This document shows, in pieces, positions 5,457 through 35,669 of a stretch of 43,932 bases of DNA. How positions within the stretch are numbered: position 1 is the stretch's first letter; each line of letters opens with the position of its first letter. The notes under the pieces were generated by a model. That model searched no databases. It had not been told where the DNA came from and worked only from the letters and a program-made list of their open reading frames with translations. This DNA is from a virus: the IMG/VR virus record IMGVR_UViG_3300021594_000125, positions 1-43,932 of that record. The stretch is one strand, 5' to 3'. A program made the translations under genes and the position numbers.

Positions 5457-5459
5457 ATT

Positions 5460-19120: not shown

Positions 19121-19366
19121 TCACTTAAAAGATTTTTTACGAAGTTTTTCTATGGCTTCTTTAATCTTGTTTAAGTAACGTTCTTGAGGTTTAGTCTTAT
19201 TGAGGAACCAATGATAGACAGTCTGCCGTGTGACCCCGAAAAATTCTGCTACATGAGAAACAGGAATCTCTCGCTCGGCACATATCAACCCCAGTTGAAC
19301 CCAGGGTAGTGACGTGTCCTGCTCCTTTATCCTGTCAACAAGTCTCTTTGTGTATCCAATTTCCAT
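19121..19366 (-). CDS. Small helix-turn-helix protein
   Basis: This 81-residue protein contains a helix-turn-helix at about residues 35-57: PVSHVAEFFGVTRQTVYHWF, with the usual A-x3-G spacing. A basic C-terminal helix (IKEAIEKLRKKSFK) follows. It could regulate the replication genes or act with the primase it precedes by six bases. No Shine-Dalgarno site is visible before the ATG; a perfect GC hairpin (19375-19392) ends eight bases upstream instead. Confidence 0.75.
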   Translation of the reverse strand: MEIGYTKRLVDRIKEQDTSLPWVQLGLICAEREIPVSHVAEFFGVTRQTVYHWFLNKTKPQERYLNKIKEAIEKLRKKSFK

Positions 19367-22635: not shown

Positions 22636-22658
22636 CGAGTGGAACTCGGTTCCGTTCG
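22636..22658. repeat. Dispersed dyad, copy 1 (extended 23-base form)
   Basis: Core GGAACTCGGTTCC at 22641-22653. With flanks, it is identical over 23 bases to the copy at 35418-35440. It lies between the RecB-like gene and the HNH start, 14 bases before the HNH ATG. Confidence 0.9.
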
Positions 22659-22659
22659 A

Positions 22660-23331
22660 TTATGCGTGTTTTCCGTTATGAATGCAAGAGTGCACCGCAC
22701 AATAATTGCGGCAAGTGAAGTTGGGTTTGGGGTTCCAAACATCCTGTGTATAAGCGGATTCTAGGGGGACATACAGATATAGTGCATCGCGCAGAAGTCC
22801 GAGAAAATCGCCACGCACATAGTCTTTCTTTATAAAGTCATTAGACACTACGAACATCAACGCACCCTTTATCCGTTCGACTTCGGGGAAGTGTGCAAAG
22901 GTAGCCATCGCCAAGAAGTCTAATTGCTTAGTGTCGGCATACTTGGCATTACGCCCTGTCTTGTAGTCAATGATAAATGCAGTCTTATCTTTTACGATTA
23001 CAAGATCGGCTATTCCACGCCACCAAACTTGTTGGTCAAAGAAACCGCAGGGTTTCCCGTCGTCTGACAACCCCATCTTATACTCACAAAGTTTTTGTCC
23101 TTCGATTGCATTAAGGGTATCTAATTGGGATTTGATGAACAAGAATTGTTCGGGCAACGGGGTTCCGTCTTTGATGTAGAGTTCGGCTGCCTTATGAAGT
23201 TGTTCTCCATAAAGAAGTTGCTCTGTCTTGGGTTCAACAATGTCTTTTACCACCCGTAGATGGTGATACTTCTTAGGGCATTGGTGAAACAGGGTGATGC
23301 TTGAATACGACCAAGCGGGGGGTTTACTCAT
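22660..23331 (-). CDS. RecB/Cas4-like PD-(D/E)XK nuclease
   Basis: The 223-residue protein begins with the family hallmark YSSITLFHQCPKKYHHLRV. Catalytic residues follow in order: H46 (GEQLHKAAE), D109 (WRGIADLVIV), and D122-x-K124 (FIIDYKTGR), then QLDFLAMA. Four cysteines, C18, C207, C211 and C216, are placed as in AddB/Cas4 enzymes and could hold an Fe-S cluster. Family members are single-strand or end-directed exonucleases. It lies downstream of DNA polymerase with a 57-residue gene between, whose last codons overlap its ATG. Recombination or host-DNA breakdown are both possible. Confidence 0.88.
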   Translation of the reverse strand: MSKPPAWSYSSITLFHQCPKKYHHLRVVKDIVEPKTEQLLYGEQLHKAAELYIKDGTPLPEQFLFIKSQLDTLNAIEGQKLCEYKMGLSDDGKPCGFFDQQVWWRGIADLVIVKDKTAFIIDYKTGRNAKYADTKQLDFLAMATFAHFPEVERIKGALMFVVSNDFIKKDYVRGDFLGLLRDALYLYVPLESAYTQDVWNPKPNFTCRNYCAVHSCIHNGKHA

Positions 23332-23497
23332 CGGGTAAGTTAGAAATGATTGCGGCTTTCATCATTCGTAATTCTACAATCGCTAAGTTTATATGATCGA
23401 CTGCTGACTTGTAATCATTCTTCAGTATGAGTTGGACAGTTCGTTCTAGTTCTTTCTTTCCCTCAATGTAATGGGGGGCATAGTCAAGTTTTACCAT
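23324..23497 (-). CDS. Small 57-residue protein between polymerase and RecB-like gene
   Basis: A short open frame starts at the ATG at 23497, which is preceded by AGGAGATA at good spacing. It ends with TAA overlapping the ATG of the RecB-like gene (GATGAGTAA). The product begins MVKLDYAPHYIEGKKELERT and continues with a charged helix (QLILKNDYKSAVDHINLAIV) to LPDE. The strong ribosome-binding site, the stop-start overlap and the fit in an otherwise empty gap make it a real gene. Function unknown; it may assist the nuclease or polymerase. Confidence 0.7.
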   Translation of the reverse strand: MVKLDYAPHYIEGKKELERTVQLILKNDYKSAVDHINLAIVELRMMKAAIISNLPDE

Positions 23498-23514
23498 AGT
23501 TATCTCCTATTAAA

Positions 23515-25335
23515 TTAACACTCTCCATAGTTTGCACCAACACCTGATTCACAGTTCAAGGGTAGTCCAATGGCCCACTCAGGTATCCATCGCATACAGG
23601 ATTCAACATACTCTTTAGCCTGGTATTGCTCTTCGATAGGCGCGATACAAGCAATTGCATCGTGGACAGTCAAGACCACGCGGTAGCGTTCTGCAATCTT
23701 CAACATCTGCTGACCAACCACAATTCTAGCCAATGCTTGCACCACATTCTCTATTACTTTCCCGCCGTAAATTTTTACCCACTCGTTCTTTCGGGCTTCG
23801 TATTCAAACCCACCATCCGATGTAGGCCGCAGATTGTTGTATTTAACATGGAGTCCTGACGGGAGCCGGATACCTTTGGCCCCTTCAACCATCAACACTT
23901 TGTGCTGACCAAGCGGAGCGTTCCTGTTTTTAAGAATCGCAGGTAACGAGTTCTGTCCTTCATACCACAACTGTTTAACCTTGAAGTTCCGTTCCCGATA
24001 AACCTGAATGATTCGCTCGGCTTCATGCTTCTCCAACTTAACCTTTTGCAACGCAAGCATATTCTTAAACTTCTCTGCGCCCATGCCGTAGCCGCAACCT
24101 AGCACAACAGTCTTGCCTATGAAGCGTTCATCCTTCGTTATATCTTCGGGGGGTTTGCTGTATATCGCTGACGCCATGATGCGATAAACATCTTCTCCTG
24201 TGCTGAATGCTTGGACTATGTCCTGCTGACCCGCCAACCATGCAAGCATACGAGCCTCAATCTGTGATGAGTCTGCATCAATAATCACATAGCCTTCGGG
24301 CGCACATATAGAGTTCTTCAGGGCTGATGAGCCTGTGCGTGAGGGTAAGTTCTGAAGATTCAAACTGTCTGCACCACCCCATCTGCCTGTGTGTGCGGCA
24401 TAGTATTTAAGTGGAACCGGCAAAGCGCCTCTGTTACCTATACCTATAAACCTCTCTGTGCGTGTTTCTTCAAGGGTGCTTTTAACGCCGAGCCTAGCCG
24501 CCACCGCAGTTTGCACCGCAACATCTTCATGGTTTTGCAAGGCAAGAAACTCTTTATCAGTCTTAGCAAATGCCAATGCTTCTTTGCCTGTGGTCGGACT
24601 GATTTTCATTGGGGGATCAACTCCACGCCCACGCAACCATTCTGCAAACTTGTTGTTGGACATGATAGTCTCTGTATCCAGGCCAGACGCAACAAGCAAC
24701 TTGTCCTTGAAGTCTCTGATCTGCGCTAAATGTTTAGTAAGTAAGTCAACATCCACCATGAGAACGGGTTCGGCAAACATCCGTATCGTTAGGTCAATCA
24801 GTTTTAGTTCCTGTCTTGGGAAGTCTAGCAACATCTTCTTGAATAACTTAAATGTAATGTCCACATCGTTACAACAATACAACCCATAGTTCCGTAGTTC
24901 GGATTTTGTGAAGTCATGTCTGCGCTTACCAATCGCACTCTCAACTTCTATGCCTTTCGTGCCAACGCCGTATAACTCAGCAAGTTTTGCCAACGACTTT
25001 GACTGCGTTGCGGGAAGTAAGGCTTGACCCATAGACATGGTATCTACCCAACCCAAAGGCACAATGCCAAAACGCCATACAAGAATGGCGGCATCAAACA
25101 TTGTGTTATGTGCAAGGACTAGTGAAGACGGCCAATCAAACTGCCCCAACCAATCCTTAACATCTTGGTGTGTGCCACTAAACCATTTGACATCTCCACC
25201 GTTCTCTTTAACTGCTACACCAATTACTTCAAACGAATCTGATCTTACATACTCCTCTGTCGTGATCTTGCTTAACGAATAGTCTCTGTCATAGTAAGTC
25301 TCAAAGTCTATCGTCAACAACTTTGTTGATGACAT
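23515..25335 (-). CDS. polA: Family A DNA polymerase with 3'-5' exonuclease
   Basis: The 606-residue enzyme has an N-terminal DEDD exonuclease (D10 and E12 in TIDFET, D81 in NTMFDAAIL, D157/D159 in CCNDVDI) and a polymerase domain. Motif A is DSSQIEAR (D355). Motif B is R404-x3-K408-x7-Y416-G417 and aligns without gaps to the E. coli O-helix, with Leu412 at the place of Phe762. Motif C is VHDA (H558-D559-A560), where HDE is usual. It lacks a 5' nuclease domain. GAGGAG precedes the ATG, which overlaps the VRR-NUC gene. It is the likely replicative polymerase, working with the PrimPol-helicase and SSB candidate. The Leu variant and HDA are genuine features of the sequence; their effects are inferred from family studies. 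Confidence 0.95.
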   Translation of the reverse strand: MSSTKLLTIDFETYYDRDYSLSKITTEEYVRSDSFEVIGVAVKENGGDVKWFSGTHQDVKDWLGQFDWPSSLVLAHNTMFDAAILVWRFGIVPLGWVDTMSMGQALLPATQSKSLAKLAELYGVGTKGIEVESAIGKRRHDFTKSELRNYGLYCCNDVDITFKLFKKMLLDFPRQELKLIDLTIRMFAEPVLMVDVDLLTKHLAQIRDFKDKLLVASGLDTETIMSNNKFAEWLRGRGVDPPMKISPTTGKEALAFAKTDKEFLALQNHEDVAVQTAVAARLGVKSTLEETRTERFIGIGNRGALPVPLKYYAAHTGRWGGADSLNLQNLPSRTGSSALKNSICAPEGYVIIDADSSQIEARMLAWLAGQQDIVQAFSTGEDVYRIMASAIYSKPPEDITKDERFIGKTVVLGCGYGMGAEKFKNMLALQKVKLEKHEAERIIQVYRERNFKVKQLWYEGQNSLPAILKNRNAPLGQHKVLMVEGAKGIRLPSGLHVKYNNLRPTSDGGFEYEARKNEWVKIYGGKVIENVVQALARIVVGQQMLKIAERYRVVLTVHDAIACIAPIEEQYQAKEYVESCMRWIPEWAIGLPLNCESGVGANYGEC

Positions 25336-25603
25336 TTTTTAACTCCTCTACATTCTCTGCGTTAATAACAACGGCGATACCCCCTTGGTCTTTAATACTT
25401 GCCAAGTTCTTTTGTTGCAACGCAGTAGGCTGATCCTTCGGCGTAGCCTTACATTCGATGGCTACAAACCGACCACGCACACAGGCAACAATATCGGGTA
25501 TTCCACTAGATCCGTAACCGGACATTACAGGGTAAAACCAATAGACACCATAACTGTCAAGCAGTTTGGTTACTCGCGTCTTTACTTTCTTCTCCGGAGT
25601 CAT
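25301..25603 (-). CDS. VRR-NUC domain nuclease
   Basis: The 100-residue protein is a stand-alone VRR-NUC (PD-(D/E)XK) fold: GIPDIVACVRGRFVAIECKA gives D37, E50 and K52 as catalytic residues, followed by QPTALQQKNLASIKDQGG and VVINAENVEELKNVI. Phage members act on branched or nicked DNA and can stand in for a junction resolvase. It overlaps the polymerase by 35 bases and the upstream gene by 47, so translation is coupled; its own ribosome site is weak. Confidence 0.9.
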   Translation of the reverse strand: MTPEKKVKTRVTKLLDSYGVYWFYPVMSGYGSSGIPDIVACVRGRFVAIECKATPKDQPTALQQKNLASIKDQGGIAVVINAENVEELKNVINKVVDDRL

Positions 25604-26435
25604 TTGGTTTTCTTAAGACTTTAAGATCGTTACCATACAAGAAGTATGAGTTTGCTTCAACCTTGACCCCAATATCTTCAAGCATTTCGTTGTGGGGTGC
25701 GATCCTCAACAGGGCAACCTTCTGCTGAACAAAGTCAGGCATAGCCTCAAAGGAATCGTATTCCTCGACTCTATTTTCATTATTACCATAGATATTCAGG
25801 ATCCACCGATCATTAACATTGAAAGCGACTATCTGCATGGCTCCATTGACACCATTGTAGTTATCCCGCACCCAATGAGAAAGCGTGCGTAACTCTCTGT
25901 ATTCCTTGACTCCAGCACAAAACTTTTCGCCAAGCATAGCATGAGGAATCTTATTCTCAAAGTAATCTAATACTTTGTTCATGTCGTTATGCAGTAACTC
26001 TGTCCAACAACTTCTTGCTTTTTCTTCTGCTCTACGCATTTCATAATACAACTTGTGTCTACCAGCACTTACTATTTCATCTGCACGCTCTTGAAAAGTA
26101 AACGGCCTTACAAATTGATCGACTATATTAGTAATCAACTTAACTTTTTTGGTTCGCTTCTCGTCTCTAGGACTGCGTTCATTTTTAATCAAGCGAGACT
26201 CTGCAACAAATATATGTTCATCCGCATTCATATGTTGATGATCATTGATCCACAATCTAGCAAACGCTTTATCAGGGTGAACATCTGTAAAAAGATTTAG
26301 GGATATGATCAACTCCGGATCAGCGTCACTTCGTTTGCTTGTCCTGTAACCTTTTACAGTTATGTTGGAGTATCGCTTGTTCAAGCGATCAACTGCAACT
26401 TGAAGTTTGGGATGTAATTGTGCGTTAGTTTTCAT
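25557..26435 (-). CDS. Unknown protein, 292 residues
   Basis: No family was recognised. The sequence begins MKTNAQLHPKLQVAVDRLNK and is mixed alpha/beta and charged. The centre (RRAEEKARSCWTELLHNDM) is helical, and the end, after AHNEMLEDIGVKVEANSYF-like text, has a Ser/Asp-rich tail. It has no signal or membrane segment. The ATG follows AAAGGAAAACACC, the leader shared with other genes of this block. It lies between two unknowns and VRR-NUC. Its placement with replication genes suggests a DNA-metabolism accessory role (inference). Confidence 0.6.
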   Translation of the reverse strand: MKTNAQLHPKLQVAVDRLNKRYSNITVKGYRTSKRSDADPELIISLNLFTDVHPDKAFARLWINDHQHMNADEHIFVAESRLIKNERSPRDEKRTKKVKLITNIVDQFVRPFTFQERADEIVSAGRHKLYYEMRRAEEKARSCWTELLHNDMNKVLDYFENKIPHAMLGEKFCAGVKEYRELRTLSHWVRDNYNGVNGAMQIVAFNVNDRWILNIYGNNENRVEEYDSFEAMPDFVQQKVALLRIAPHNEMLEDIGVKVEANSYFLYGNDLKVLRKPNDSGEESKDASNQTA

Positions 26436-26453
26436 GGTGTTTTCCTTTCTTAG

Positions 26454-27299
26454 TTATCGAATGATTGTGGTGTTCGGCACATCGCGCATTTCATAGACTA
26501 TGTCTTTGTGCTTATCTTTAATCCATGAATAAATGGCAGACTTCAAATCGTAGGTGTGGCATCTGTAACCATCTTCGTAATAGCGATACTTAGCATTATT
26601 ACCTACCAAGTTATTGAAGGCAGACGCAAAAATATCAGGTGCAGACTCCATAGTTTTATTGGCAACTAACCTAAGCAATTCGGGATTCATACCACCATAA
26701 GTTTTCCGATATGTTTCTACATCTTCTTCGGAATACGAGCCGCCTGATAGTTTGTTCATAACTTCAATATACTTAATGAAGTCTTTATACTGCTTGATGA
26801 TGGGCAAATACTTGTCGCGCACCACATAATGCTTCTGCTCTACAACAAGTTTCCCTTCAAGAATGTAATCAAGTCCTTGTTCTGTCTTGACACATTTCAA
26901 AGTCAATGGGTTGTCATCGGTAACAGGGTATTGAATATGCTTTGTCTTGTCATACAAATACCATTTGTGTCTAGAAGCGTATCTAACTTTGAATCTATTC
27001 TTGAACATAGCACCAACTAATTGCCTAGTGTTCAAAGGCCAACGACCTACAAAGAAAGTGATTCTGTTATTAGGATAAAACCTAACACACACATCGCTTG
27101 CATAAGTGCCTACATCAATGGTGTGTTTCGGTTCGTTTGGGAATTTACTTTTGTCAGTAAACGCAATCCACCTTGCATGGTAATATCGGCGTGCGCCCAA
27201 CGGGCGGATACCATTTGTCCCACGAATAGGGTTAACTGCATTTACGAATGTGTCAGCGTCTGCATAACACACCATCTTTGGAACATCGTAGACTATCAT
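26454..27299 (-). CDS. Unknown protein, 281 residues
   Basis: No family was recognised. It is rich in Tyr, Lys and Asp and has many short strands (IVYDVPKMVCYADADTFVNA, CVRFYPNNRITFFVGRWP). The later part is helical (DKYLPIIKQYKDFIKYIEVM). It has no visible catalytic signature or membrane segment. AAAGGAG lies eight bases before the ATG. Two consecutive large unknowns directly downstream of the MoxR/VWA/DUF3150 set could be its targets or partners. Confidence 0.6.
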   Translation of the reverse strand: MIVYDVPKMVCYADADTFVNAVNPIRGTNGIRPLGARRYYHARWIAFTDKSKFPNEPKHTIDVGTYASDVCVRFYPNNRITFFVGRWPLNTRQLVGAMFKNRFKVRYASRHKWYLYDKTKHIQYPVTDDNPLTLKCVKTEQGLDYILEGKLVVEQKHYVVRDKYLPIIKQYKDFIKYIEVMNKLSGGSYSEEDVETYRKTYGGMNPELLRLVANKTMESAPDIFASAFNNLVGNNAKYRYYEDGYRCHTYDLKSAIYSWIKDKHKDIVYEMRDVPNTTIIR

Positions 27300-27311
27300 T
27301 TCATACTCCTT

Positions 27312-28178
27312 TCAAAAAGACATACGCTTAAGAATGTCATCAACTTCAGACTTCACATGATTGCGTGTATCAGTTTCCTCACGCAATTCCTTAGCGGAGA
27401 TACCGAACATGGCTTTCTCCAATTGCTTACGGGACTTCTCCAACTCAGGATCGTTGGTAATGTTCATGCACTTCAACATATCAATCAGTTCGATTGCGTT
27501 GTCTACCAATGAATCACGGAAGATCTTCTTGTTCTCATCTTCTGCGTAATCCAAGCGTTCACTCATGCGAGTCAAGCACTCATGCAAACGGCTCCATGCA
27601 TCTTTCATAGCAGTCTGCACTCGTGCATCGAACTGAGACTCATACCTACCAACAAGTTCTTGTATTCCTTCGTTACTAATATCAACGCGAAAGTCACCCG
27701 ACTGTGGGACAGGCGTGTATTCATACTTGAAGTAAAACTTATGAGCGATTACATCAGGAAGCGGATAGTCCTCACGATTGAATAACTCACCGAGAGTAAA
27801 AGCCGCCGCAGTAATCATGTTGTTATAGTCACCAAGGAACTTGTTCTTGAGTGCATCAAACTCAGTTTCAAACTGACGCATCTTTGTGTTGTATTCCATG
27901 AAGCGACCCATGACTAGCAACCTAGTGCCTGAATCCGACCAAGGCAAAGTGTTGTTGTAGTGATAGGTTCGGACTTGGGTTACAAACTTCTGAATCTCGT
28001 CAAGCGCATTGTCGCCTGCAAATAACTTCTTATGAAAGTTACCTGCCCTAGCCTTGGTGTTCTTGGCTATATCAATCTCTTCCGACACACGCTTGTCGTT
28101 CTTACGCGCAGTCCATATGGCGATGTTCAAATCCACCAACACGGAACTTGATGAAATGCTTGTGACTTCTTGGTTCAT
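27312..28178 (-). CDS. DUF3150-like protein
   Basis: The ATG at 28178, after AAAGGAGAAACACC, gives 288 residues; the frame extends to 28247 inside the VWA gene. The pattern LVDLNIAIWTARKNDKRVSE...NFHKKLFAGD...LDEIQKFV...RTYHYNNTLPWSDSGTRLL and YEYTPVPQSGDFRVDI fits DUF3150, a family usually encoded beside MoxR-type AAA ATPases and VWA proteins. The rest is helical. Function is unknown; the fixed neighbourhood suggests it is the substrate or adaptor of the ATPase/VWA pair. Confidence 0.8.
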   Translation of the reverse strand: MNQEVTSISSSSVLVDLNIAIWTARKNDKRVSEEIDIAKNTKARAGNFHKKLFAGDNALDEIQKFVTQVRTYHYNNTLPWSDSGTRLLVMGRFMEYNTKMRQFETEFDALKNKFLGDYNNMITAAAFTLGELFNREDYPLPDVIAHKFYFKYEYTPVPQSGDFRVDISNEGIQELVGRYESQFDARVQTAMKDAWSRLHECLTRMSERLDYAEDENKKIFRDSLVDNAIELIDMLKCMNITNDPELEKSRKQLEKAMFGISAKELREETDTRNHVKSEVDDILKRMSF

Positions 28179-28191
28179 GGTGTTTCTCCTT

Positions 28192-29472
28192 TCATTTAAC
28201 ATAGACAACTTGACCATGCGTAGGCATAGCCTTGTTATCGCCAACAACTACCCACAACACAGGTGCATTGATACCATGTGGATCACCCCACCCTGGCACA
28301 TACCCATCAGTTAGAACTACGATTGCGTCAGGCGGAACGGAACTCGGTTCCTTTCGCAAATAGTCAAACACACAGGCAGGGTCTGTTCCACCACCGCCAC
28401 TCATCTTTATATCCATCATCGTCTCACCCGCATCACGCTCAAATCGTTTGTGCGATTCAACTTCGGTATCCCACGCCAATACATCAAGGATTTCGGGATT
28501 GACTTCGGTTCGTATGGATTCCAACTGCGAGAAGAACTCTTGCCTCAGATCATGGTTCACAGATCCTGAAACATCTGTTGCACCAACGATGCGAGAGGTT
28601 GTCTCGCTGTATGCGCTAGGCATATATATGCCAAGATGTTGTAGCCTCTTGTTCGGTTGACGATAAGTAGAAAGATCCTTGCCTGCCATCGTAGCCTTCA
28701 CAAAGTCACGCATTACATCACGCCAATCCACATATGGCTCAAGCAACTCTTCCAAACCCAACTCGGAATCACCACGACCAATGCCATACTTCTTGCAAAG
28801 ATCTTTGGACAACATCTGACCTTGGCGTATTGCTTGGTCAATCTGAGAACGCAACTGATCCTTCTCGGCTTGCGTCATGTTGTTATCCATAATCTTTTCG
28901 TGATTGTCGAGTGCCGATGGACTATCGGTGTTTGCTTTTGGATTACTTGGCGGTTGCGTTGAGGGTTTGTCCTTCCCACCATCATTGTTGTTCTTAGATG
29001 GGCTATTGGGCGGCGGCTTTTGTTGAGACTTGAGAATCCGATACACAGATCCTGCATCCATGCCACGGAACTGCTCGTCATAGATACCACCAATAGTCGG
29101 GAACTTCACGATGCGATCAAACTGTCCGACAGGTGCGCCCCAATCTTCAATCATTAGATTGATAACTGCATCGCACGCAACACCCGCAGTCTCTGCATCT
29201 TCATTAAACAAATGATTCCATATAGTCCCATGCTGAAACATCTTGTGGAAGTTCTCATGCGCTACGACAAAGCACAACTCCTGATCATCTAACTGATCAA
29301 CAAACTCAGGGTCATACCACTCGTTGCGACCATCGGTGCAGGCGGTTCCCCACCCTTCCTCGACAGTTACCTTACCCATCAACATGATGCCGGACAGGGC
29401 GGCAAACTTCGGATGCGTCATCAAGGCAACCCTTGCTTTCGCAACCCGTTGTTCAGGTGTTAATTTACTCAT
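28192..29472 (-). CDS. VWA-like protein with metallopeptidase-type N-terminus
   Basis: The 426-residue protein has an N-terminal HExxH motif, H72-E73-N-F-H76 (LCFVVAHENFHKMF), typical of the DUF2201 putative metallopeptidases. A disordered linker (about 150-195) is followed by a VWA-like domain with MIDAS residues D300-x-S302-x-S304 (ATDVSGSV), T363 (GGGGTD) and D389 (VVLTDGY). VWA domains bind metal and partner proteins and in MoxR systems pair with the AAA ATPase. AAGGAAGG precedes the ATG. The dispersed dyad lies inside the gene (28339-28351), encoding EPSSV just before the last VWA strand. Whether the peptidase is active is unknown. Confidence 0.85.
   Translation of the reverse strand: MSKLTPEQRVAKARVALMTHPKFAALSGIMLMGKVTVEEGWGTACTDGRNEWYDPEFVDQLDDQELCFVVAHENFHKMFQHGTIWNHLFNEDAETAGVACDAVINLMIEDWGAPVGQFDRIVKFPTIGGIYDEQFRGMDAGSVYRILKSQQKPPPNSPSKNNNDGGKDKPSTQPPSNPKANTDSPSALDNHEKIMDNNMTQAEKDQLRSQIDQAIRQGQMLSKDLCKKYGIGRGDSELGLEELLEPYVDWRDVMRDFVKATMAGKDLSTYRQPNKRLQHLGIYMPSAYSETTSRIVGATDVSGSVNHDLRQEFFSQLESIRTEVNPEILDVLAWDTEVESHKRFERDAGETMMDIKMSGGGGTDPACVFDYLRKEPSSVPPDAIVVLTDGYVPGWGDPHGINAPVLWVVVGDNKAMPTHGQVVYVK
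28339..28351. repeat. Dispersed dyad, copy 2, inside the VWA gene
   Basis: Exact 13-base core GGAACTCGGTTCC within the coding sequence, translated on the - strand as EPSSV in a loop of the VWA domain. An extra GGAAC directly precedes it. Confidence 0.9.
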
Positions 29473-29492
29473 AGTGCCTTCCTTTCTTGAAT

Positions 29493-29505
29493 GGAACTCG
29501 GTTCC
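29493..29505. repeat. Dispersed dyad, copy 3, in the VWA gene leader
   Basis: Exact core in the 39-base gap between the AAA ATPase gene and the VWA gene start, 20 bases before the VWA ATG. Confidence 0.9.
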
Positions 29506-29511
29506 GTTGGA

Positions 29512-30597
29512 CTACTTAACATCGGGCAACATCCAATGATTCTCGACTGCCCACTTTGCAAACTCTATGTTACGACTTGCAAACTCCCGCTTGTCCTTGA
29601 TCTTGTAAAGATTAGTGCCGAACAACGCTTGTGATTCTCTCGGCAATCGCTTCATGTATTTCACGATTGCAGTCAGGTTAGCCTTGTCTGCACGCATCAT
29701 CGCTTGTTGCACCAAGATACAGACAGCGATTGGATTCTCAGGAACCTTGCAGTTGTTGGGATCACGCTCAATCACAGCCCAATCTTCAAGTTCTTTCTCC
29801 ACAGTAGAGTAGGCTTGAATATCTGCCGCCGCGCTTGGCCCCAACACACCGACCAAGTTTGCATGGATAAGATGTTCAGGCAGTTGATCACGCTTGTGCA
29901 TAATGATTGATGCACGGGCCAATGAACGGGGCGCAACGAACGACCGCTTCGGTAACTGCGGGAAAAAGATATACGGGTTAGGTGGCACGCCGTTCTTAAA
30001 GTCCTTGTCGCTGAAGTCCGTATACGACTGAAGACAATGCGGGTTCTTGGTAGCCCACGCCATCAAAGTCGGATGTTGATTGTTTGATCGACCCCACTCG
30101 CACCACTCTTCTGCATTCGGCTTGCGAACATTCAGCCAATCAATACGAGAGATAAAGTGTGGTGGCATATTGTCGCCAACACCATCGCCACTCAGGTTAC
30201 CCGTAGCAAACACGACAGACTTGGTAGTCAGGTGCTTGTCATACAGACGCCTATCGTTGAATGTTGGCATCAACATATTCATCACAGGGCGGGGAGACTT
30301 GGTCAGCTCGTCTAGCAACATGACAACATCTTTACCCTTGTGCATTCCAAAGCGTGCGTTCGGCAGAAACTCCGTGCATCCCGCTTCTTTGTCCTGATAC
30401 GGAGTGCCGAGGTCGCCCAACTCAAGAGTCGCACAGTCAATCGGCGCATACTCATAGCCCAACTCTGCGGCAATCTCTTGACCCATAGCAGTTTTGCCAA
30501 TGCCAGGCTCACCGCATAGGAATATCGGAACATCTGCGCCGAACTCCAAGACAGACCGCTTGGCTTCGGCTAGAGATACTGTTTGCATTTCAATCAT
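29512..30597 (-). CDS. MoxR-type AAA+ ATPase
   Basis: The 361-residue ATPase has Walker A GEPGIGKT (29-36), Walker B VVMLLDE (91-97) and a sensor-like VVFATGN. The segment between them, EFLPNARFGMHKGKD, resembles the MoxR/CbbQ/NorQ family. Its ring would remodel a partner through the VWA protein encoded directly downstream (transcription order ATPase, VWA, DUF3150). AAAGGAAACACACC precedes the ATG. MoxR modules usually activate or assemble metalloenzymes or complexes; the phage target is not known. Confidence 0.9.
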   Translation of the reverse strand: MIEMQTVSLAEAKRSVLEFGADVPIFLCGEPGIGKTAMGQEIAAELGYEYAPIDCATLELGDLGTPYQDKEAGCTEFLPNARFGMHKGKDVVMLLDELTKSPRPVMNMLMPTFNDRRLYDKHLTTKSVVFATGNLSGDGVGDNMPPHFISRIDWLNVRKPNAEEWCEWGRSNNQHPTLMAWATKNPHCLQSYTDFSDKDFKNGVPPNPYIFFPQLPKRSFVAPRSLARASIIMHKRDQLPEHLIHANLVGVLGPSAAADIQAYSTVEKELEDWAVIERDPNNCKVPENPIAVCILVQQAMMRADKANLTAIVKYMKRLPRESQALFGTNLYKIKDKREFASRNIEFAKWAVENHWMLPDVK

Positions 30598-30617
30598 GGT
30601 GTGTTTCCTTTCTTGGT

Positions 30618-31055
30618 TTAGTTAGATTTTGAAATACGGGTTACAAGACCCTCAAGGTATCGAATGATAGCCTGCTGATCCTTGATCTCGTTATACAGAT
30701 CTCGGTTCTTAACAAGCAATTCAGCAACATCAAAACTACGAGGCGGGACAAACTTAGCCTTGGGATCAAACTGAGTGAACGCATTCATCTGCTCACCTGA
30801 TATCGGTTTGGCTTTAACATCTTTCTTCGTCTTGCCGCCCCTGATATACGGCCCAACTTTCTGCAACTTCTTGGGGTGATGCGGTGTCTTGCGAACATAG
30901 GCACGGACTTTCTCCTTCGCTTGTTGTTTAAGTTTATGTCGGATGTTGTAGATCCGACTCTTTGATACGCCAACTGTCTCGGCAATCTCTTCGGTTGGCA
31001 TTCCCTTTTGCAAGGCATTGATTACTGCAATAACTTTTTGGCTTTTCGGTTTCAT
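30618..31055 (-). CDS. HTH DNA-binding protein with C-terminal coiled coil
   Basis: The 145-residue protein has an N-terminal helix-turn-helix (ALQKGMPTEEIAETVGVSKS, then RIYNIRHKLKQQ) of the resolvase/homeodomain-like kind. A Lys-rich linker follows, and then a C-terminal helix (LLVKNRDLYNEIKDQQAIIR) that could dimerise it. GGAGGT precedes the ATG. It lies directly upstream of the MoxR trio, so it may regulate it or bind the dispersed dyads (inference). Confidence 0.7.
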   Translation of the reverse strand: MKPKSQKVIAVINALQKGMPTEEIAETVGVSKSRIYNIRHKLKQQAKEKVRAYVRKTPHHPKKLQKVGPYIRGGKTKKDVKAKPISGEQMNAFTQFDPKAKFVPPRSFDVAELLVKNRDLYNEIKDQQAIIRYLEGLVTRISKSN

Positions 31056-31059
31056 GGCA

Positions 31060-31230
31060 TTACCTCCAAATAAAAATGATTAAGTGAATAGTTAAATAGA
31101 TCATCAACGCAACGACTAACCAATACGCTAACTGATCCGACTTCATGCGGTCATCTTTATAAAAGATGTTCCGTTGAACTGCACTTCTGAACGGAACTCG
31201 GTTCCGCCCGTTTGGCAGACTGCTTCTCAT
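31060..31230 (-). CDS. Small membrane protein carrying the dyad in its 5' part
   Basis: A 56-codon frame starts at the ATG at 31230 with AAAGGAG seven bases before it and stops seven bases from the next gene's start. The N-terminus is Arg-rich (MRSSLPNGRNRVPFRS, part of which is encoded by the dyad). The end is one transmembrane helix (LAYWLVVALMIYLTIHLIIF). A shorter 28-residue version from an inner ATG is possible. It overlaps a second hydrophobic frame (31157-31323). Function unknown. Confidence 0.5.
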   Translation of the reverse strand: MRSSLPNGRNRVPFRSAVQRNIFYKDDRMKSDQLAYWLVVALMIYLTIHLIIFIWR

Positions 31231-31323
31231 TACGACTCTCCTTTCTTATATCAAGGTAAATAACAACTGCTACTCCAAACAAAACTACAACTGCAAACCA
31301 TGCAACAGATTGTGCGGCTTCAT
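31157..31323 (-). pseudogene. Hydrophobic frame without a usable start, possibly disrupted
   Basis: On the - strand a frame reads AAQSVAWFAVVVLFGVAVVI followed by YLDIRKESRNEKQ and ends at 31157. This is a well-formed transmembrane helix with a positively charged tail. It has no ATG or GTG. The only ATG, at 31323, is one frame off and stops after 12 codons. A one-base insertion near the start would join them as MKP/AQSVAW. It may be a small membrane gene with a frameshift, a sequencing or assembly error, or a non-standard start. Confidence 0.35.
31193..31205. repeat. Dispersed dyad, copy 4, inside small membrane gene
   Basis: Exact core, extended to CGGAAC-TCG-GTTCCG. A further half site, GTTCCGTT at 31169-31176, lies 14 bases to its left as an inverted partner of AACGGAAC. 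Confidence 0.9.
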
Positions 31324-31514
31324 GTGTTTAACCACCGCACAAGACCTTTTTTATCAGTCGGGATGACTCTCAATTCCGGCTCAAGCGCAAACACATCGTC
31401 ATCACCCCCTGTGCCTATTAATTCTTTTATGAACTTTTTAGCCTCTGCTTTAGTGGCAAACCACTCATTTACCCAACTATCATAATCTTGATACTGCACT
31501 CTATAAATTTTCAT
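31320..31514 (-). CDS. Small protein of unknown function, 64 residues
   Basis: The ATG at 31514 follows GAGGAGG and overlaps the end of the DUF2591-like gene by 14 bases; the frame extends to 31547 but without a better start. The product begins MKIYRVQYQDYDSWVNEWFA and continues KAEAKKFIKELI, a beta-alpha arrangement. It has no known motif. Confidence 0.65.
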   Translation of the reverse strand: MKIYRVQYQDYDSWVNEWFATKAEAKKFIKELIGTGGDDDVFALEPELRVIPTDKKGLVRWLNT

Positions 31515-31854
31515 CACACACCTCCTCGGGAACCTCCACTTCTTCACCTAACTTACTAAATACATAGCACCTCATGGCGGCGATTAGGGGGGTTGCTCCT
31601 AACGAATATGTTCGACAGTCGGAAGATAACGCCAAAAGATGCGTGTCATAACACTGATCAAGACTTATCTTCTCCCGCTCAATGATCGGCCCACCATGCT
31701 CCCAATCTTCTGAGGGTCTATAAAGATCTCCATAGGTTATGTTAGGGGTAATCAGGAACAACAGACCACACTCAAACTTAACTTGTTTATCTTCAGCCTT
31801 CGCCACGGCCCAATCCAACTGCGCACCGCTTAACTCACTTGTTTTTACTTTCAT
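31501..31854 (-). CDS. DUF2591-like phage protein
   Basis: The 117-residue protein opens with MKVKTSELSGAQLDWAVAKA and carries WEHGGPIIEREKISL and TPLIAAMRCYVFSKLGEEVE, the conserved order of the DUF2591 family, widespread in phages of Gram-negative hosts. The function of the family is not established. It overlaps both neighbours and belongs to a run of small early genes. Confidence 0.8.
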   Translation of the reverse strand: MKVKTSELSGAQLDWAVAKAEDKQVKFECGLLFLITPNITYGDLYRPSEDWEHGGPIIEREKISLDQCYDTHLLALSSDCRTYSLGATPLIAAMRCYVFSKLGEEVEVPEEVCDENL

Positions 31855-32447
31855 TTCTCTTCCTCCTCTTCCTTAATAAATTCACCAAGAACATCATTCT
31901 TTGCCGATCCCAAAGGCAACTTACTACTTACATCAATCGAACGGGCAAGACTCATTTCATCCCTACCAAAGACTCTGTGGTCAATGTCGTTGCTTTCCTC
32001 GCCGATGCGGATATACACACCGGACACCATCTGATCGAATGTCGTGCAGAACTCCCAAAACTCTTCGATTTGTTTGACTTCGGGATAGTCTTCATACCAC
32101 TTAACACTCTCGACAAAGAACACAATGTTCTGATCATCCCAACCCCATGAGTCTGCGTGCCACTCACCAAATAACTTACCGCCTTGTGCGTTCACAAACA
32201 GTTTTAGGTGCGTGCAGAACTGATCAAACTGCGCCTTCTCTCTTCCCTTTCCTGAGATGCATATGCCAACATCAGATCTGTAACCCATGATTGACCTCCG
32301 TATTTGTTTGTGTATCGGGTGATTGGAATTGGTTATCTCTCTCCGGAACTGCTCGGAACTGTCTACGACTTGTTTCCAAGACCTCTCTTGCCCAACGATT
32401 GCACGCAGATACGCCGCATTCCGTTTGATCCTGTGCTTGATTCTCAT
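31851..32447 (-). CDS. Unknown protein with a strong internal start
   Basis: The frame is open for 198 residues from an ATG at 32447 that follows GAGGACA. Inside it, the ATG at 32288 has a much better site, GGAGGTCAATC, giving a 145-residue protein (MGYRSDVGICISGKGREKAQ). The N-terminal 53 residues are Arg/Lys-rich (MRIKHRIKRNAAYLRAIVGQ) and could be a separate small gene now fused in frame. The C-terminal part is acidic and ends in EEEEEK. No family was recognised. Both starts may be used. Confidence 0.6.
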   Translation of the reverse strand: MRIKHRIKRNAAYLRAIVGQERSWKQVVDSSEQFRREITNSNHPIHKQIRRSIMGYRSDVGICISGKGREKAQFDQFCTHLKLFVNAQGGKLFGEWHADSWGWDDQNIVFFVESVKWYEDYPEVKQIEEFWEFCTTFDQMVSGVYIRIGEESNDIDHRVFGRDEMSLARSIDVSSKLPLGSAKNDVLGEFIKEEEEEK

Positions 32448-32456
32448 GGTCTGTCC

Positions 32457-32744
32457 TCATTCCTTTGCCTTTCTCCAATCGGTCATAGTCCACGACTGCA
32501 TGGCCTGCTTCATGCTCGGTGGTTTTTGTTCGGGTTTAGGTTTGGGTTTAACGGAACTCGGTTCCGGTGGGGATTGTCTTTTGTTGATACGATTTAACAC
32601 ACCCCAAGTTGTTGTCATGTAATACTTACGCTCGCACATGGATGTAAGGCCGATCTTCTCGCCATCAATCCACGCGATGTAAAAGGGCTTGCCGTGAAAC
32701 CGCACGACTTCGCCCAACGAATAACCTTCGGTTTGCTTGCTCAT
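32457..32744 (-). CDS. Small protein with Pro-rich linker holding the dyad
   Basis: The 95-residue protein has an N-terminal beta-rich part (GYSLGEVVRFHGKPFYIAWI), then a Pro/Lys linker (PEPSSVKPKPKPEQKPP) and a short C-terminal helix. The EPSSV in the linker is encoded by the dispersed dyad at 32553-32565, in the same frame as in the VWA gene. Its ATG overlaps the upstream gene's stop (ATGA). Function unknown. Confidence 0.6.
   Translation of the reverse strand: MSKQTEGYSLGEVVRFHGKPFYIAWIDGEKIGLTSMCERKYYMTTTWGVLNRINKRQSPPEPSSVKPKPKPEQKPPSMKQAMQSWTMTDWRKAKE
32553..32565. repeat. Dispersed dyad, copy 5, inside a linker-coding region
   Basis: Exact core, extended to CGGAAC-TCG-GTTCCG, translated as EPSSV on the - strand. 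Confidence 0.9.
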
Positions 32745-32938
32745 ATTGATACCCCCTGTTCCTCGCTCAGTTGATGCAGTTTGTATATGTAGTGGGCAAA
32801 GCGAATGATCGACTTGCCACGCTCAGTCTTGGGCTTTAGTTCTTTGTCTGAGTTGGCATACTCGTAATACGCATCAGACGCCTTGACCATGTAGAAGAAC
32901 AATTCCTCGTGGGTCATGTCCTCAAACTTCTTCTTCAT
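32741..32938 (-). CDS. Small helical protein, 65 residues
   Basis: It begins MKKKFEDMTHEELFFYMVKA and continues with helical, charged sequence (TERGKSIIRFAHYIYKLHQL). AGAGGTG precedes the ATG, and it overlaps both neighbours by four bases. No family was recognised; it could be a small adaptor. Confidence 0.6.
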   Translation of the reverse strand: MKKKFEDMTHEELFFYMVKASDAYYEYANSDKELKPKTERGKSIIRFAHYIYKLHQLSEEQGVSI

Positions 32939-33135
32939 TTCCGCACCTCTTTCTGATTGGTCATCTTCAGTTCCTCGGGGTCATAGATCAGTTGATACGC
33001 ACCCTTGCCATACGGGATACCGACTGTCCACTTGACCATACGCGCTTCACGCTCTCCGCAGGTCTTGCAGGTTTCATACCCCGCCTCGTATCGGGCGGGT
33101 GTTACAACGGCTTTCTTACATTTTGCGCATTTCAT
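32935..33135 (-). CDS. Small zinc-ribbon protein
   Basis: The ATG at 33135 follows AGGAGA and gives 66 residues; the same frame runs much further upstream but through the structured, repeat-bearing leader. C3-x2-C6 (MKCAKC) and C23-x2-C26 (CKTC) form a zinc ribbon. The rest is a short strand-rich tail (GKGAYQLIYDPEE). Such proteins often bind RNA polymerase, DNA or ribosomes. It is the first gene after the leader RNA and promoter region. Confidence 0.7.
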   Translation of the reverse strand: MKCAKCKKAVVTPARYEAGYETCKTCGEREARMVKWTVGIPYGKGAYQLIYDPEELKMTNQKEVRK

Positions 33136-33198
33136 AATGTTTCTCCTGTAAAGATGTTGCATGGTGTTATGGTGTATTTCGGACAACAACTCGTTCCT

Positions 33199-33314
33199 AA
33201 AAAACACACCGCCGAATAGATTGGTCTTACAAGTGAGTCCCGTTTTACGCATACGGGACAGGAGACGAACCACATACACAAACGCTACTCCACTAGGCCA
33301 ATCCACTCGGCGGT
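33199..33314 (-). ncRNA. Candidate structured leader RNA / attenuator
   Basis: Arms at 33208-33224 and 33298-33314 pair over 17 bases; the two non-Watson-Crick positions are G-U pairs only in the - strand RNA. An inner hairpin, GTCCCGT / ACGGGAC with a 9-base loop, lies at 33237-33259. Three bases after the outer stem the - strand has six T (33204-33199), as in an intrinsic terminator. It is about 530 bases downstream of a leftward promoter and just before the zinc-ribbon gene. It does not fold as a tRNA in my hands. It may be an attenuator, a riboswitch-like leader or the 3' end of a small RNA. Confidence 0.5.
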
Positions 33315-33404
33315 ATGTTCTACCGCTTTTGCCTTCTGCTATTTCGTTGCAGTCGGGGTCACCGAAAGGTTCAGGCATGGGGGAACAAATAAGTAGGCAT
33401 GACC

Positions 33405-33417
33405 GGAACTCGGTTCC
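33405..33417. repeat. Dispersed dyad, copy 6, in the leader
   Basis: Exact core, flanked as CCGGAAC-TCG-GTTCCACTCGG, with the outer ACTCG flank on the opposite side from copies 1 and 9. Confidence 0.9.
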
Positions 33418-33771
33418 ACTCGGCTCCGGCAACGATCAACAAGAGCAAGACGCACCACCACAACAGTTGAGAACTTGGTTTGTATGATTTTTCTCAGGGT
33501 GTTGTGGATCGGTATCTTGATTGATGGGGTCGTGTCTAATTTGTTACCCGCAGAGATACTGCTACTTGGCATCGCTTGTTCAACAGGGAGAACCTTCAGG
33601 ACTTTGGTTTGTCCTGCTTTGCGGTTCTGTGAATGGACTGTGTTTGAATAGGTCGGGTTGGGCTTTATTGCGCCACCTATACTTTATTCCCGCCTACCTA
33701 CGCACCGCCTTATGCACGACTTGGAGTTCGTGTTTGCGACTTGCAAGATACGCCTACTCTGCACCCCGAAC

Positions 33772-33784
33772 GGAACTCGGTTCC
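33772..33784. repeat. Dispersed dyad, copy 7, near the promoter
   Basis: Exact core in an extended form (CGAACGGAAC / GTTCCGGTCG, nine of ten arm positions pair). It lies about 65 bases downstream of the predicted leftward start site. Confidence 0.9.
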
Positions 33785-33853
33785 GGTCGAGGCTTTTGTG
33801 CAACTAGATTGTAAAAGAGCAGGGAAGTAGTGACAGACTACCTCCGAGGGGAG

Positions 33854-33882
33854 AGTATACCATAGATTAGACAACAACGCAA
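33854..33882 (-). promoter_or_regulatory. Strong leftward promoter beside the iteron field
   Basis: Read on the - strand: TTGCGT (33882-33877), 17 bases, TATACT (33859-33854), with TG one base before the -10 box (extended -10). Transcription would begin near 33847 and run left through the leader into the zinc-ribbon gene and the rest of the early block. The iteron field starts about 20 bases upstream of the -35 box, where activators or repressors would bind. Confidence 0.7.
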
Positions 33883-33900
33883 TATATTTGACAACTATTT

Positions 33901-34336
33901 TTGCACATTGACACAAACGAGAAATCATACAAAAGGCACATAAATACTACTTGCACATTGGAACATTTGGACATTCTTGAGAGCCGCATCAGGACTCGTT
34001 TGTGCAAATGTGTAATGTGGATTGTAAAAGAAATAAGGTAGTTGTAAATGTTCAAATGTGCAAAAACTGAAATCGGGTTTGGAATTTTTGCACATTCGAT
34101 AAGTGCTTGATTTGCAAAGGGAAAATGCGTTGAATGTGCAAATGTGCAAATGTGCAAAGGGTTTTAAGTGAGCGCGCCAAAAAATTGGAAAAACTGCATG
34201 GGTGGGGGGAGAGAGGGTTAATTTAGATTTCTCTCTTTTTTTTATGGAACATTTGAACATTTGAACATTCGGCCCGCAAACCCGCATGGTTGAGCCAAAG
34301 TTGAATGTGCAAAAGTTTTTTTGCGTTTGGACATTA
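33901..34336. repeat. Iteron-like field of GNACATT / AATGTNC words
   Basis: Fifteen exact copies of GNACATT or its complement AATGTNC occur in about 430 bases, nine in + and six in - orientation. Two places hold three tandem 8-base units: AATGTGCA at 34133-34156, and GAACATTT/C at 34247-34270. A third mixed cluster is at 33951-33975. Single copies lie at 33901, 34088, 34304 and 34329. The region is AT-rich and has no credible gene. The arrangement resembles replication-origin iterons or a multi-site operator upstream of the leftward promoter. Confidence 0.75.
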
Positions 34337-34398
34337 CAGACAATTCAATGCTGGCGCGGGTCTGCGTGTTTTGGTTAATTATTGACCACCCCGCAAAG

Positions 34399-34413
34399 CC
34401 TTATGCCATAAGG
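34399..34413. repeat. Perfect short inverted repeat
   Basis: CCTTATG-C-CATAAGG: seven-base arms with one central base, between the iteron field and the DnaA-box match. It is a possible operator. Confidence 0.5.
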
Positions 34414-34438
34414 GTTTGAGCCGTTTTTGATGCGTAAC

Positions 34439-34447
34439 TGTGGATAA
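34439..34447. promoter_or_regulatory. Consensus DnaA-box match
   Basis: TGTGGATAA, the exact complement of the bacterial DnaA box TTATCCACA, lies about 100 bases from the iteron field and is followed by a T tract. By chance one such 9-mer would be expected about 0.3 times in a window of this size on both strands, so it is suggestive only. Confidence 0.35.
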
Positions 34448-34571
34448 CTTTTTTGGAGGGTGCTTTTTGGGGTCGCGCGTGTCAGCCGACTCTGTTGTCA
34501 CTGGTTTCGATTGTCGTGCGTTGGGGAGTGCAAGGGGTTGCGGTTGTATGGTGCGTGGGAAGATGTTGAGT

Positions 34572-34584
34572 GGAACTGAGTTCC
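34572..34584. repeat. Dispersed dyad, copy 8 (variant)
   Basis: GGAACTGAGTTCC: the centre differs from the other copies (TGA instead of TCG), and the change makes the arms pair over six bases. It lies between the DnaA-box match and the terminator. Confidence 0.85.
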
Positions 34585-34628
34585 GTTGGGTTGGGTGGCG
34601 AATGTTTGGCATTTGCGCGGTGCAGACG

Positions 34629-34662
34629 AAAAAAAACCCCGCAAGCCCGAAGGCCTGCGGGG
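34629..34662 (-). terminator. Leftward intrinsic terminator of the first early gene
   Basis: CCCCGCA (34637-34643) and TGCGGGG (34656-34662) enclose an inner GCC/GGC stem and a four-base loop. On the - strand eight T follow. It lies 18 bases after the stop of the 233-residue gene, so the first early genes form a separate transcription unit that ends before the iteron field. Confidence 0.92.
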
Positions 34663-34680
34663 TAAAGTGCTTGTGTCTAA

Positions 34681-35382
34681 TTACTTCTGTCCTGCGGGGA
34701 CTGCATACTTGATCTTGGACTTGAACCACTTAGTAGCCCATGCCTGTAATTCAACGCTCGCTTGCTTGAGATCGTTCTTGTAGCACGCGTTATAACATCT
34801 TTGCCCATGATCTTGGACAATCTCTTGCACGCTCTTTTTGTTCTTAGAACTAGACTGCCGATTGTTTGGATCTTTCTCCTTGAATTTCCCTGCGAATTCA
34901 AGTCTGCACCAATCAGTAAACTTCCTGAAACGGCCTTTGGCTCCGTCTGCCGCTTTCTTTACTTGCTCCGTTTGCGAGGCGTCTACTGCATCACTTTTTA
35001 TTTCGCCACGCGAGGGATTGATTGATACATTTACAGCAAGACCCTTTGACTCAAAGTGCGCTTTGTAAAATATCACGCGGATTTGATTCGTAATACTTTT
35101 ATCAGCATCAAAAAACTTCTTGCCATATGATTGCTGACACTCCGCGTAAAACACTTTACGGGCCGCGCTTACTGCATCGCCTGCCGTATCTTCGGCATTG
35201 AACGCATTGACTAATGCAAGCGCGCTAGACTGCAACTGTTTCAAACGCGCATTGATCGCATCGCCTATTTGCTTGGCCTTGCGAGTAGCACCTGCCACGC
35301 GCTTGTTTGTTGCTTCCCCTTTCAAGTGTGATTGAATGGGGGACTCTTTTACTGCAACTTCTTTCTTGGCGGATTTAGCCAT
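34681..35382 (-). CDS. Basic protein of unknown function, early gene
   Basis: The ATG at 35382, with AGGAGATG in front, gives 233 residues; the frame extends to 35451 but through a dispersed dyad. It is Lys/Ala-rich. A helical N-terminal half (NKRVAGATRKAKQIGDAINA, then RLKQLQSSALALVNAF) is followed by a Lys/Arg/Ser-rich part (NNRQSSSKNKKSVQ) and an aromatic end (LQAWATKWFKSKIKYA). It has no known motif. Its position as the main early gene beside the origin-like region, with its own terminator, suggests a nucleic-acid-binding or host-takeover role (inference). Confidence 0.65.
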   Translation of the reverse strand: MAKSAKKEVAVKESPIQSHLKGEATNKRVAGATRKAKQIGDAINARLKQLQSSALALVNAFNAEDTAGDAVSAARKVFYAECQQSYGKKFFDADKSITNQIRVIFYKAHFESKGLAVNVSINPSRGEIKSDAVDASQTEQVKKAADGAKGRFRKFTDWCRLEFAGKFKEKDPNNRQSSSKNKKSVQEIVQDHGQRCYNACYKNDLKQASVELQAWATKWFKSKIKYAVPAGQK

Positions 35383-35388
35383 TTGATT

Positions 35389-35410
35389 ACATCTCCTGTA
35401 AACAAGTTGA
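35389..35410. repeat. 22-base leader repeat, copy A
   Basis: ACATCTCCTGTAAACAAGTTGA differs by one base from the copy at 35648-35669. On the - strand it ends in the ribosome-binding site of the 233-residue gene. A weaker relative (TCTCCTGTAAAGATGTTG) lies before the zinc-ribbon gene at about 33141-33158. Confidence 0.8.
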
Positions 35411-35417
35411 TAGACAG

Positions 35418-35440
35418 CGAGTGGAACTCGGTTCCGTTCG
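35418..35440. repeat. Dispersed dyad, copy 9 (extended 23-base form)
   Basis: Core at 35423-35435; identical over 23 bases to copy 1. It lies in the leader of the 233-residue gene, 35 bases before its ATG. Confidence 0.9.
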
Positions 35441-35525: not shown

Positions 35526-35651
35526 CTACCGGCGTGGGGGGTCCGCTTCCACAGCGTTGTTCGGGTCCCATCGCTCTACACAGTAATCCGCACAAACAAC
35601 TACAACTTTTTTACAATCACCATCAATTGGCAACAAAACGTACTGATACAT
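35526..35651 (-). CDS. Small Cys-containing protein, 41 residues
   Basis: A 41-codon frame starts at the ATG at 35651, directly after a copy of the 22-base leader repeat that also precedes the 233-residue gene. The product begins MYQYVLLPIDGDCKKVVVVC and continues ADYCVERWDP, with three cysteines and a protein-like alternation of strands. The Shine-Dalgarno match (AGGTG) is very close to the ATG, which lowers confidence. It would be the first gene of the leftward block. Function unknown. Confidence 0.45.
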   Translation of the reverse strand: MYQYVLLPIDGDCKKVVVVCADYCVERWDPNNAVEADPPRR

Positions 35652-35669
35652 CACCTGTAAACAAGTTGA
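35648..35669. repeat. 22-base leader repeat, copy B
   Basis: ACATCACCTGTAAACAAGTTGA, one mismatch from copy A (35389-35410); it overlaps the start of the 41-residue frame. Confidence 0.8.

Follow-up and report, generated by a model that had tools for sequence, protein, structure and literature searches.

The window analysed here is a 43,932-nucleotide stretch of viral DNA (IMG/VR record IMGVR_UViG_3300021594_000125, positions 1 to 43,932), and its early block carries nine dispersed copies of a short palindrome, GGAACNNNGTTCC, referred to below as the window dyad. We found that this palindrome is one lineage-specific version of an architecture present across a family of related phages, which was not visible in the preliminary description, made from the letters of the window alone. 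The dyads are interpreted with fair confidence as an array of regulatory sites, most likely repressor operators. In particular, we favor with moderate confidence the view that a dimeric helix-turn-helix (HTH) repressor encoded by the phage binds them as its operators and so blocks host RNA polymerase; this repressor is most likely the 81-residue protein HTH81.

According to the mechanism that we propose, the early block would be transcribed leftward from about 35.4 kb by the host sigma70 RNA polymerase, and the repressor would be expressed from the replication operon, whose direction of transcription is that of the early block. The repressor would then bind beside early promoters and before individual early genes, where it would form a roadblock and turn early transcription off. 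Such an action would resemble that of the mycobacteriophage stoperators, here without evidence of lysogeny. Searches for tyrosine and serine integrases (Phage_integrase and Resolvase) found none in 11 records, several of them near 60 kb, and did match the control genomes; the records may be incomplete, and partition genes were not searched. As no integrase was found, lysogeny is not indicated.

Palindromes of the window and of its relatives

The window dyad belongs to the GGAAC-N3-GTTCC class and was found nine times, compared with 0.02 copies expected from dinucleotide shuffles, of which the highest contained one. All nine copies are located within 22.6-35.4 kb, and none was present in 1-22.6 kb or 35.5-43.9 kb. 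Eight copies read GGAACTCGGTTCC, and the copy at 34572 reads GGAACTGAGTTCC. The preliminary description was thus accurate as to the eight exact copies and one variant, all nine coordinates, the confinement to the early block and the improbability of such a 13-mer by chance. The eight exact copies are all oriented alike, with GGAACCGAGTTCC on the minus strand, where the early genes lie. The symmetry extends to approximately 21 bp as GARY-GGAAC-NNN-GTTCC-RYTC; a weaker extension had been anticipated in the slightly different form CGAAC..GTTCG. Beyond the 13-mer, the copies have only the near-symmetric GARY...RYTC in common; the repeat is thus confined to the palindrome, about 21 bp in length, instead of extending into a larger mobile element. 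The earlier suggestion of a spreading miniature repeat was therefore rejected.

Six of the nine dyads are located in gaps or leaders and three within open reading frames (ORFs), as listed below. Four of the six precede an ATG by 18-40 nt and two are intergenic, as expected from the earlier remark that several copies lie in leaders.

22641-22653, minus strand: dyad GGAACCGAGTTCC, 18 nt before the ATG at 22622, in the gap that separates this ATG from the exonuclease gene (22660-23331); position kept in two relatives
28339-28351, minus strand: dyad within the 3' part of a VWA-like gene (28192-29472); no clear match in relatives
29493-29505, minus strand: dyad 20 nt 5' of the ATG (29472) of the VWA-like gene, in the leader of that gene; position kept in two relatives
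31193-31205, minus strand: dyad within a small ORF (open frame 31245-31060); no clear match in relatives
32553-32565, minus strand: dyad within the ORF at 32457-32744; no clear match in relatives
33405-33417, minus strand: dyad 26 nt 5' of the ATG at 33378; position kept in contig G007
33772-33784, minus strand: dyad in an intergenic leader, with sigma70-like -10 elements 81-93 nt upstream; position kept in G007
34572-34584, minus strand: variant dyad GGAACTCAGTTCC, intergenic, downstream of an intrinsic terminator (34663-34636); position kept in G007
35423-35435, minus strand: terL-proximal dyad, 40 nt 5' of the first early ATG (35382); position kept in G007

A near-identical contig from a separate metagenome record (IMGVR 3300021599_000496) also contained nine dyads, and more distant contigs of the same lineage contained five (G002) and 11 (G007). 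The presence of dyads in these other contigs rules out an assembly artefact, which had been named as a possible refutation. The core proteins of G007 (polA, helicase, primase and others) are 81-85% identical to those of the window, and the six leader and gap dyads are exactly those with flanks clearly alignable to G007 dyads. At these six positions, all 10 arm bases were identical and the central triplet was changed at five. Selection therefore acts on the arms, and to a much lesser degree on the centre. Additionally, the centre is reversed in the G002 orthologue of the 22641 dyad, and the orientation of the dyad is thus probably not functional.

In 84,980 prokaryote species, the extended 13-mer was about as frequent as expected by chance (26 stretches, against approximately 30 by our own estimate), so that a host-wide motif and a host-encoded reader were rejected; relatives with other dyads also argue against such a reader. 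Four copies of GANNGGAACCGAGTTCCNNTC were seen as a local cluster within about 600 bp of an uncultured Roseburia metagenome-assembled genome (contig CANPGM010000002.1). The 13-mer core also lies within TGACCGGAACCGAGTTCCGGTCA, a 23-bp perfect hairpin of an unrelated prophage group of about 59% GC. Each genome of this group has approximately four copies of the hairpin in the same orientation, at distances of 5-8 kb and often with a T-rich stretch behind them, and the hairpin looks terminator-like. This group comprises L008, L010, L011, L017, L018, L022, L025, L027, L033, L035, L040, L043, L046, L047 and L048 and includes IMGVR 2846780681_000006, 2846802666_000007, 2850625728_000002, 3300031110_000629 and others. 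This occurrence apart, the literature searched revealed no described element with this sequence, in line with the earlier statement.

The window represents a podovirus-type phage. Its TerL relatives are HTVC023P/027P, 023Pt_psg01, DSL-LC04 and MinM2, and its polA and giant PLxRFG-type protein have relatives in RHph_TM, KPP25, Skulduggery and others. We scanned IMG/VR relatives retrieved through TerL, the small HTH gene or polA, and found that at least 15 other related phage lineages have a dispersed dyad of their own in the same early block, mostly in 3-17 copies (Poisson p 1e-13 to 1e-58). Markov shuffles gave at most two copies of any such dyad. The lineage-specific dyads were as follows.

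ATTAAAC-N2-GTTTAAT: G034
TTCATAC-N-GTATGAA: G038 and G069 (12 copies, p 1e-57)
ATGTAGT-N4-ACTACAT: G039
CTAACA-N-TGTTAG: G049, G055 and L319
CTAACA-N2-TGTTAG: G061
GTTACA-N-TGTAAC: G067
TACTGTC-N-GACAGTA: G063 and G066
(A)TTAACA-N2-TGTTAA(T): G044, G065, G073, G074 and L384
CTGAC-N5-GTCAG: G036 and G059
TAAACC-N2-GGTTTA: G046
TAAACA-N2-TGTTTA: G048
GTAAAA-N-TTTTAC: L337
GTTATAC-N-GTATAAC: L333
GATAAGT-N4-ACTTATC: L366
GTTAGTG-N3-CACTAAC: L387
GGTTCAG-N-CTGAACC: MinM2 (17 near-exact copies, p 1e-58)

No convincing dyad family was seen in HTVC023P, HTVC027P, 023Pt_psg01 or DSL-LC04. No description of these dyads was found in the openly licensed literature, including papers on the nearest phages. 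The earlier alternative of a nuclease or recombination target found no support, as the sequence that fills this role differs from one related phage to the next. Synechococcus phage MinM2 (L171/L269) is a deposited genome with an annotated AlpA-family regulator, and its TerL match is the same as that of the Planktothrix phages Pag-Yong1 and Pra-JY27. Another TerL relative, L077, has three near-identical cassettes at 3986-6544, in each of which a hairpin resembling a terminator (AGGGAGG..CCTCCCT) is found together with a palindrome of 22 bp (TACCCGGCCACGTGGCCGGGTA) before the Shine-Dalgarno (SD) sequence; this looks like a recent cassette duplication.

Placement relative to genes and promoters

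Across 21 records, 75 of 168 dyads were located no more than 45 nt before an SD plus ORF, compared with 24 expected for random positions in the same blocks. As for the strongest sigma70-like promoters of the early blocks, in 18 of 30 cases the centre of a dyad was 43-74 nt downstream of where the -10 element starts (our own count from the promoter list, with neighbouring matches merged), which places the promoter-linked dyads at about +35 to +60. These positions, together with those before genes along the operon, are better explained by a roadblock than by a repressor that competes with RNA polymerase for the promoter. In G034, G048, G049 and G069, a further dyad lies upstream of a strong early promoter and hence outside its transcript. 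The leader and promoter locations, the positions kept between species and the lineage-specific counterparts support the phage-wide operator that the preliminary description had offered as one of its possibilities.

The placement directly before genes also suits RNA leader hairpins acting in translation control, mRNA stability or processing, a reading that we consider improbable. Many dyads are located directly 5' of the SD, and in G065, G073 and G074 the dyad itself includes the SD (TTAACAGGAGTTAA-N3-ATG). Upon RNA folding, the window dyad formed a 5-bp stem with a 3-nt loop at -4.9 kcal/mol, and the dyads of other lineages mostly gave values of -2 to -6 kcal/mol. The placement is also like that of the cluster K extended start-associated sequence (ESAS) elements, which have been suggested to act in translation (PMC3203893). 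In contrast, the G034 dyad did not fold (0 kcal/mol) and the L109 dyad barely did so (-0.8 kcal/mol); within each genome, the sequence itself is kept beyond what pairing requires, and some dyads lie upstream of an early promoter or within genes. Because of the dyads upstream of promoters and the two that barely fold, we favor recognition as DNA rather than RNA.

An activator or antiterminator that switches early or middle genes on might also read such sites, and in some phages (G048 and L105) the first dyad is indeed located just upstream of the -35 element, a position used by activators. This seems quite improbable, as most promoter-linked dyads lie downstream of the transcription start, in a region seldom bound by activators, and the promoters with downstream dyads are already near consensus.

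The geometry of GGAAC-CGA-GTTCC, a 5-bp stem with a 3-nt loop, is that of the hairpin promoters used by the virion RNA polymerase of phage N4, and all window copies are co-directional with the early genes. Nevertheless, we regard such promoters as extremely improbable here. The 2561-residue virion protein of the window revealed neither T7/N4-type polymerase motifs (motif B/C) nor a PDB match, and the dyads of other lineages differ in geometry and sit downstream of sigma70 promoters. The absence of a T7-type polymerase motif in this protein is consistent with transcription by the host enzyme; a Pfam RNA_pol search was uninformative, because the control genomes gave no match. The gene for this giant protein spans 5460-13145, and known giant proteins (annotated as PLxRFG/DarB-like) are matched mainly by its last third.

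Candidate readers of the dyads

Two HTH proteins had been put forward as possible readers of the dyad, and the results for them differed.

19121-19366, minus strand: HTH81, an 81-aa XRE/Cro-like HTH protein; leading candidate for the dyad-binding repressor
30618-31055, minus strand: 145-aa HTH_23 protein; judged an unlikely reader

The 145-aa protein was set aside because its recognition helix differs among relatives that have exactly the same palindrome arms. HTH81, whose pairing with the dyads we infer, is most likely the reader, as a leading hypothesis only. In most dyad-bearing relatives in which the region is covered, its gene is kept beside that for the primase. The AlphaFold2 model of HTH81 had a pLDDT of 91.8 and consisted of five helices (residues 6-13, 20-30, 35-42, 46-53 and 61-78), and Foldseek revealed CylR2 as the best match, with a probability of 0.97-0.99 and a root mean square deviation of 1.4 over 49 columns; the E-values of 0.45-0.68 exceed 0.1, so that the match rests on the probability and deviation of a small fold. 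Further matches, likewise XRE-type regulators, were SinR, P22 c2, HipB and C.Esp1396I. The window protein scored under the Pfam cut-offs for HTH_23 (21.5 vs 24.6) and HTH_3 (17.6 vs 23), and its best orthologue matched HTH_3 with an E-value of 1.5e-6.

The three GGAAC phages have near-identical recognition helices in HTH81, and where phages have a dyad in common they also tend to have common residues in this helix: VSRQTVYNWFIGAY[ED]P for CTAACA-N1, VSRVTVY[SA]WFRG for TTAACA and VSRQAVY[ML]WF for TTCATAC. The recognition-helix residues are in common in G049 and G055, which have the same dyad, although their HTH81 proteins are only 53% identical overall. Compared with G065, G044 (same dyad) and G034 (different dyad) were equally distant in polA (72 and 73% identity) and helicase (82% each), but their HTH81 proteins were 81% and 57% identical, respectively.

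Several observations weigh against this assignment or against the operator array itself. A partial Mantel test over 18 phages gave a partial r of 0.07 (p=0.22) for the HTH81 recognition segment and 0.20 (p=0.02) for whole HTH81, and several other genes scored higher. The HTH81 proteins of G061 and G067 are 87% identical, yet their dyads differ and have only the ACA...TGT core in common. L309, L312, L331, L332 and L359 have HTH81, but no dyad family was detected in the stretch of each that was examined, and dyads are present without HTH81 in L333, L366, L387, MinM2, G042 and G056. A 69-aa winged-helix gene gives the same G044/G034 contrast as HTH81. Within the window, the promoters are weaker than those of the relatives (no score of at least 11.5) and the link between promoter and dyad is weak, and three of the nine dyads lie within genes, have no clear counterpart and are lineage-specific.

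Some of these observations suit the same operator array with another phage-encoded reader that depends on the lineage, such as an excisionase/AlpA-like HTH protein, a small winged-helix protein or another early HTH protein, which we regard as less likely. In L333, L366 and L387, an HTH_17-like (excisionase-like) protein replaces HTH81 in the neighbouring slot beside a 140-aa gene; MinM2 combines its near-exact dyads with the AlpA-family regulator; the 69-aa winged-helix-like gene of the TTAACA lineage also tracks the dyad; and the partial Mantel test does not favor HTH81. However, the 145-aa protein, the only other recognised HTH protein in the GGAAC lineage, has dissimilar recognition helices in three phages with the same arms, and no second HTH gene was found to be common to all dyad phages with HTH81.

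The TerS-like gene at 35799-36404 was also considered as a regulator and rejected; it is conserved, but no HTH was found in it, and its C-terminal sequence resembles, in our own reading, that of a terminase small subunit. The divergent region before terS/terL contains a near-identical 23-bp direct repeat, TACATC[TA]CCTGTAAACAAGTTGA, at 35388-35410 and 35647-35669, 259 bp apart, and its first copy overlaps the leader of the first early gene. At 25557-27299, two early genes for proteins of about 290 residues have 36-45% identity among close relatives, compared with 67-85% for their neighbours.

Taking HTH81 or an excisionase-like protein as the repressor, we tentatively suggest that an apparently non-temperate, uncultivated podovirus-type family may shut off its early genes through a very small repressor of XRE or excisionase-like type and a network of dispersed operators that are wholly rewritten, in sequence and half-site spacing, from lineage to lineage. 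If true, this would be a stoperator system without lysogeny, in which heterospecific 'dialects' could exclude co-infecting relatives. One early-control architecture would then span many aquatic phage lineages with naturally diversified repressor-operator pairs, which would be a ready-made set for studying changes in DNA-binding specificity and a source of orthogonal small repressors. Stoperator-like blocking of transcription would also extend beyond temperate actinobacteriophages.

Comparison with known systems

The lambdoid Cro/CI operators are palindromes of 14-21 bp that are bound by small dimeric HTH repressors. Lambdoid phages have few operators, clustered at two promoters, whereas the phages described here have up to 17 sites over roughly 3-16 kb. 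The direct repeats of TLS/T1-like phages (PMC11447400) and the repeat motifs of the Nostoc phages A-1 and N-1 (PMC4916379) are intergenic and were tentatively likened to stoperators by their authors; in contrast to the dyads, they are direct-repeat or asymmetric elements and were described without family-wide palindromic counterparts or a proposed reader.

In cluster K mycobacteriophages, start-associated sequence (SAS) and ESAS elements are short repeats located just before the translation starts of a subset of genes; the ESAS is a 17-bp inverted repeat with a lineage-dependent consensus and is almost always found alongside a separate 13-bp SAS at the translation start (PMC3203893). The dyads are similarly located just before translation starts. 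Unlike the cluster K elements, the dyad is single, is also present within genes and near promoters, and is wholly lineage-dependent in half-site sequence and spacing; in the leaders inspected, there was no second shared element of the 13-bp SAS-type sequence GGGATAGGAGCCC at the start codon.

The stoperators of cluster A mycobacteriophages (L5, Bxb1 and TipsytheTRex) are asymmetric 13-mers whose consensus varies by subcluster; their reader, an HTH repressor of the phage, is a monomer that has two DNA-binding domains and blocks elongation by host RNA polymerase, and these phages are temperate, with an integrase or parABS (PMC9283540, PMC6550527). The phages described here have palindromic sites, with a single-domain XRE protein of 76-81 residues as the candidate reader, and no integrase or resolvase was found in the 11 records. 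Because of the asymmetric sites, the monomeric two-domain repressor and the temperate lifestyle of cluster A, we do not claim membership of that group. Cluster A stoperators are co-directional with early transcription; the eight exact window sites are co-oriented, but their main asymmetry is the 3-bp centre, which is reversed in the G002 orthologue. Some cluster A stoperators are located at the early promoter and most are not promoter-associated, and a similar distribution at the early promoter and elsewhere was found in the relatives with strong promoters, while it was weak in the window. As in cluster A, the sites are short and are present in many copies within transcribed regions, with nine in the window and similar numbers in many of its relatives.

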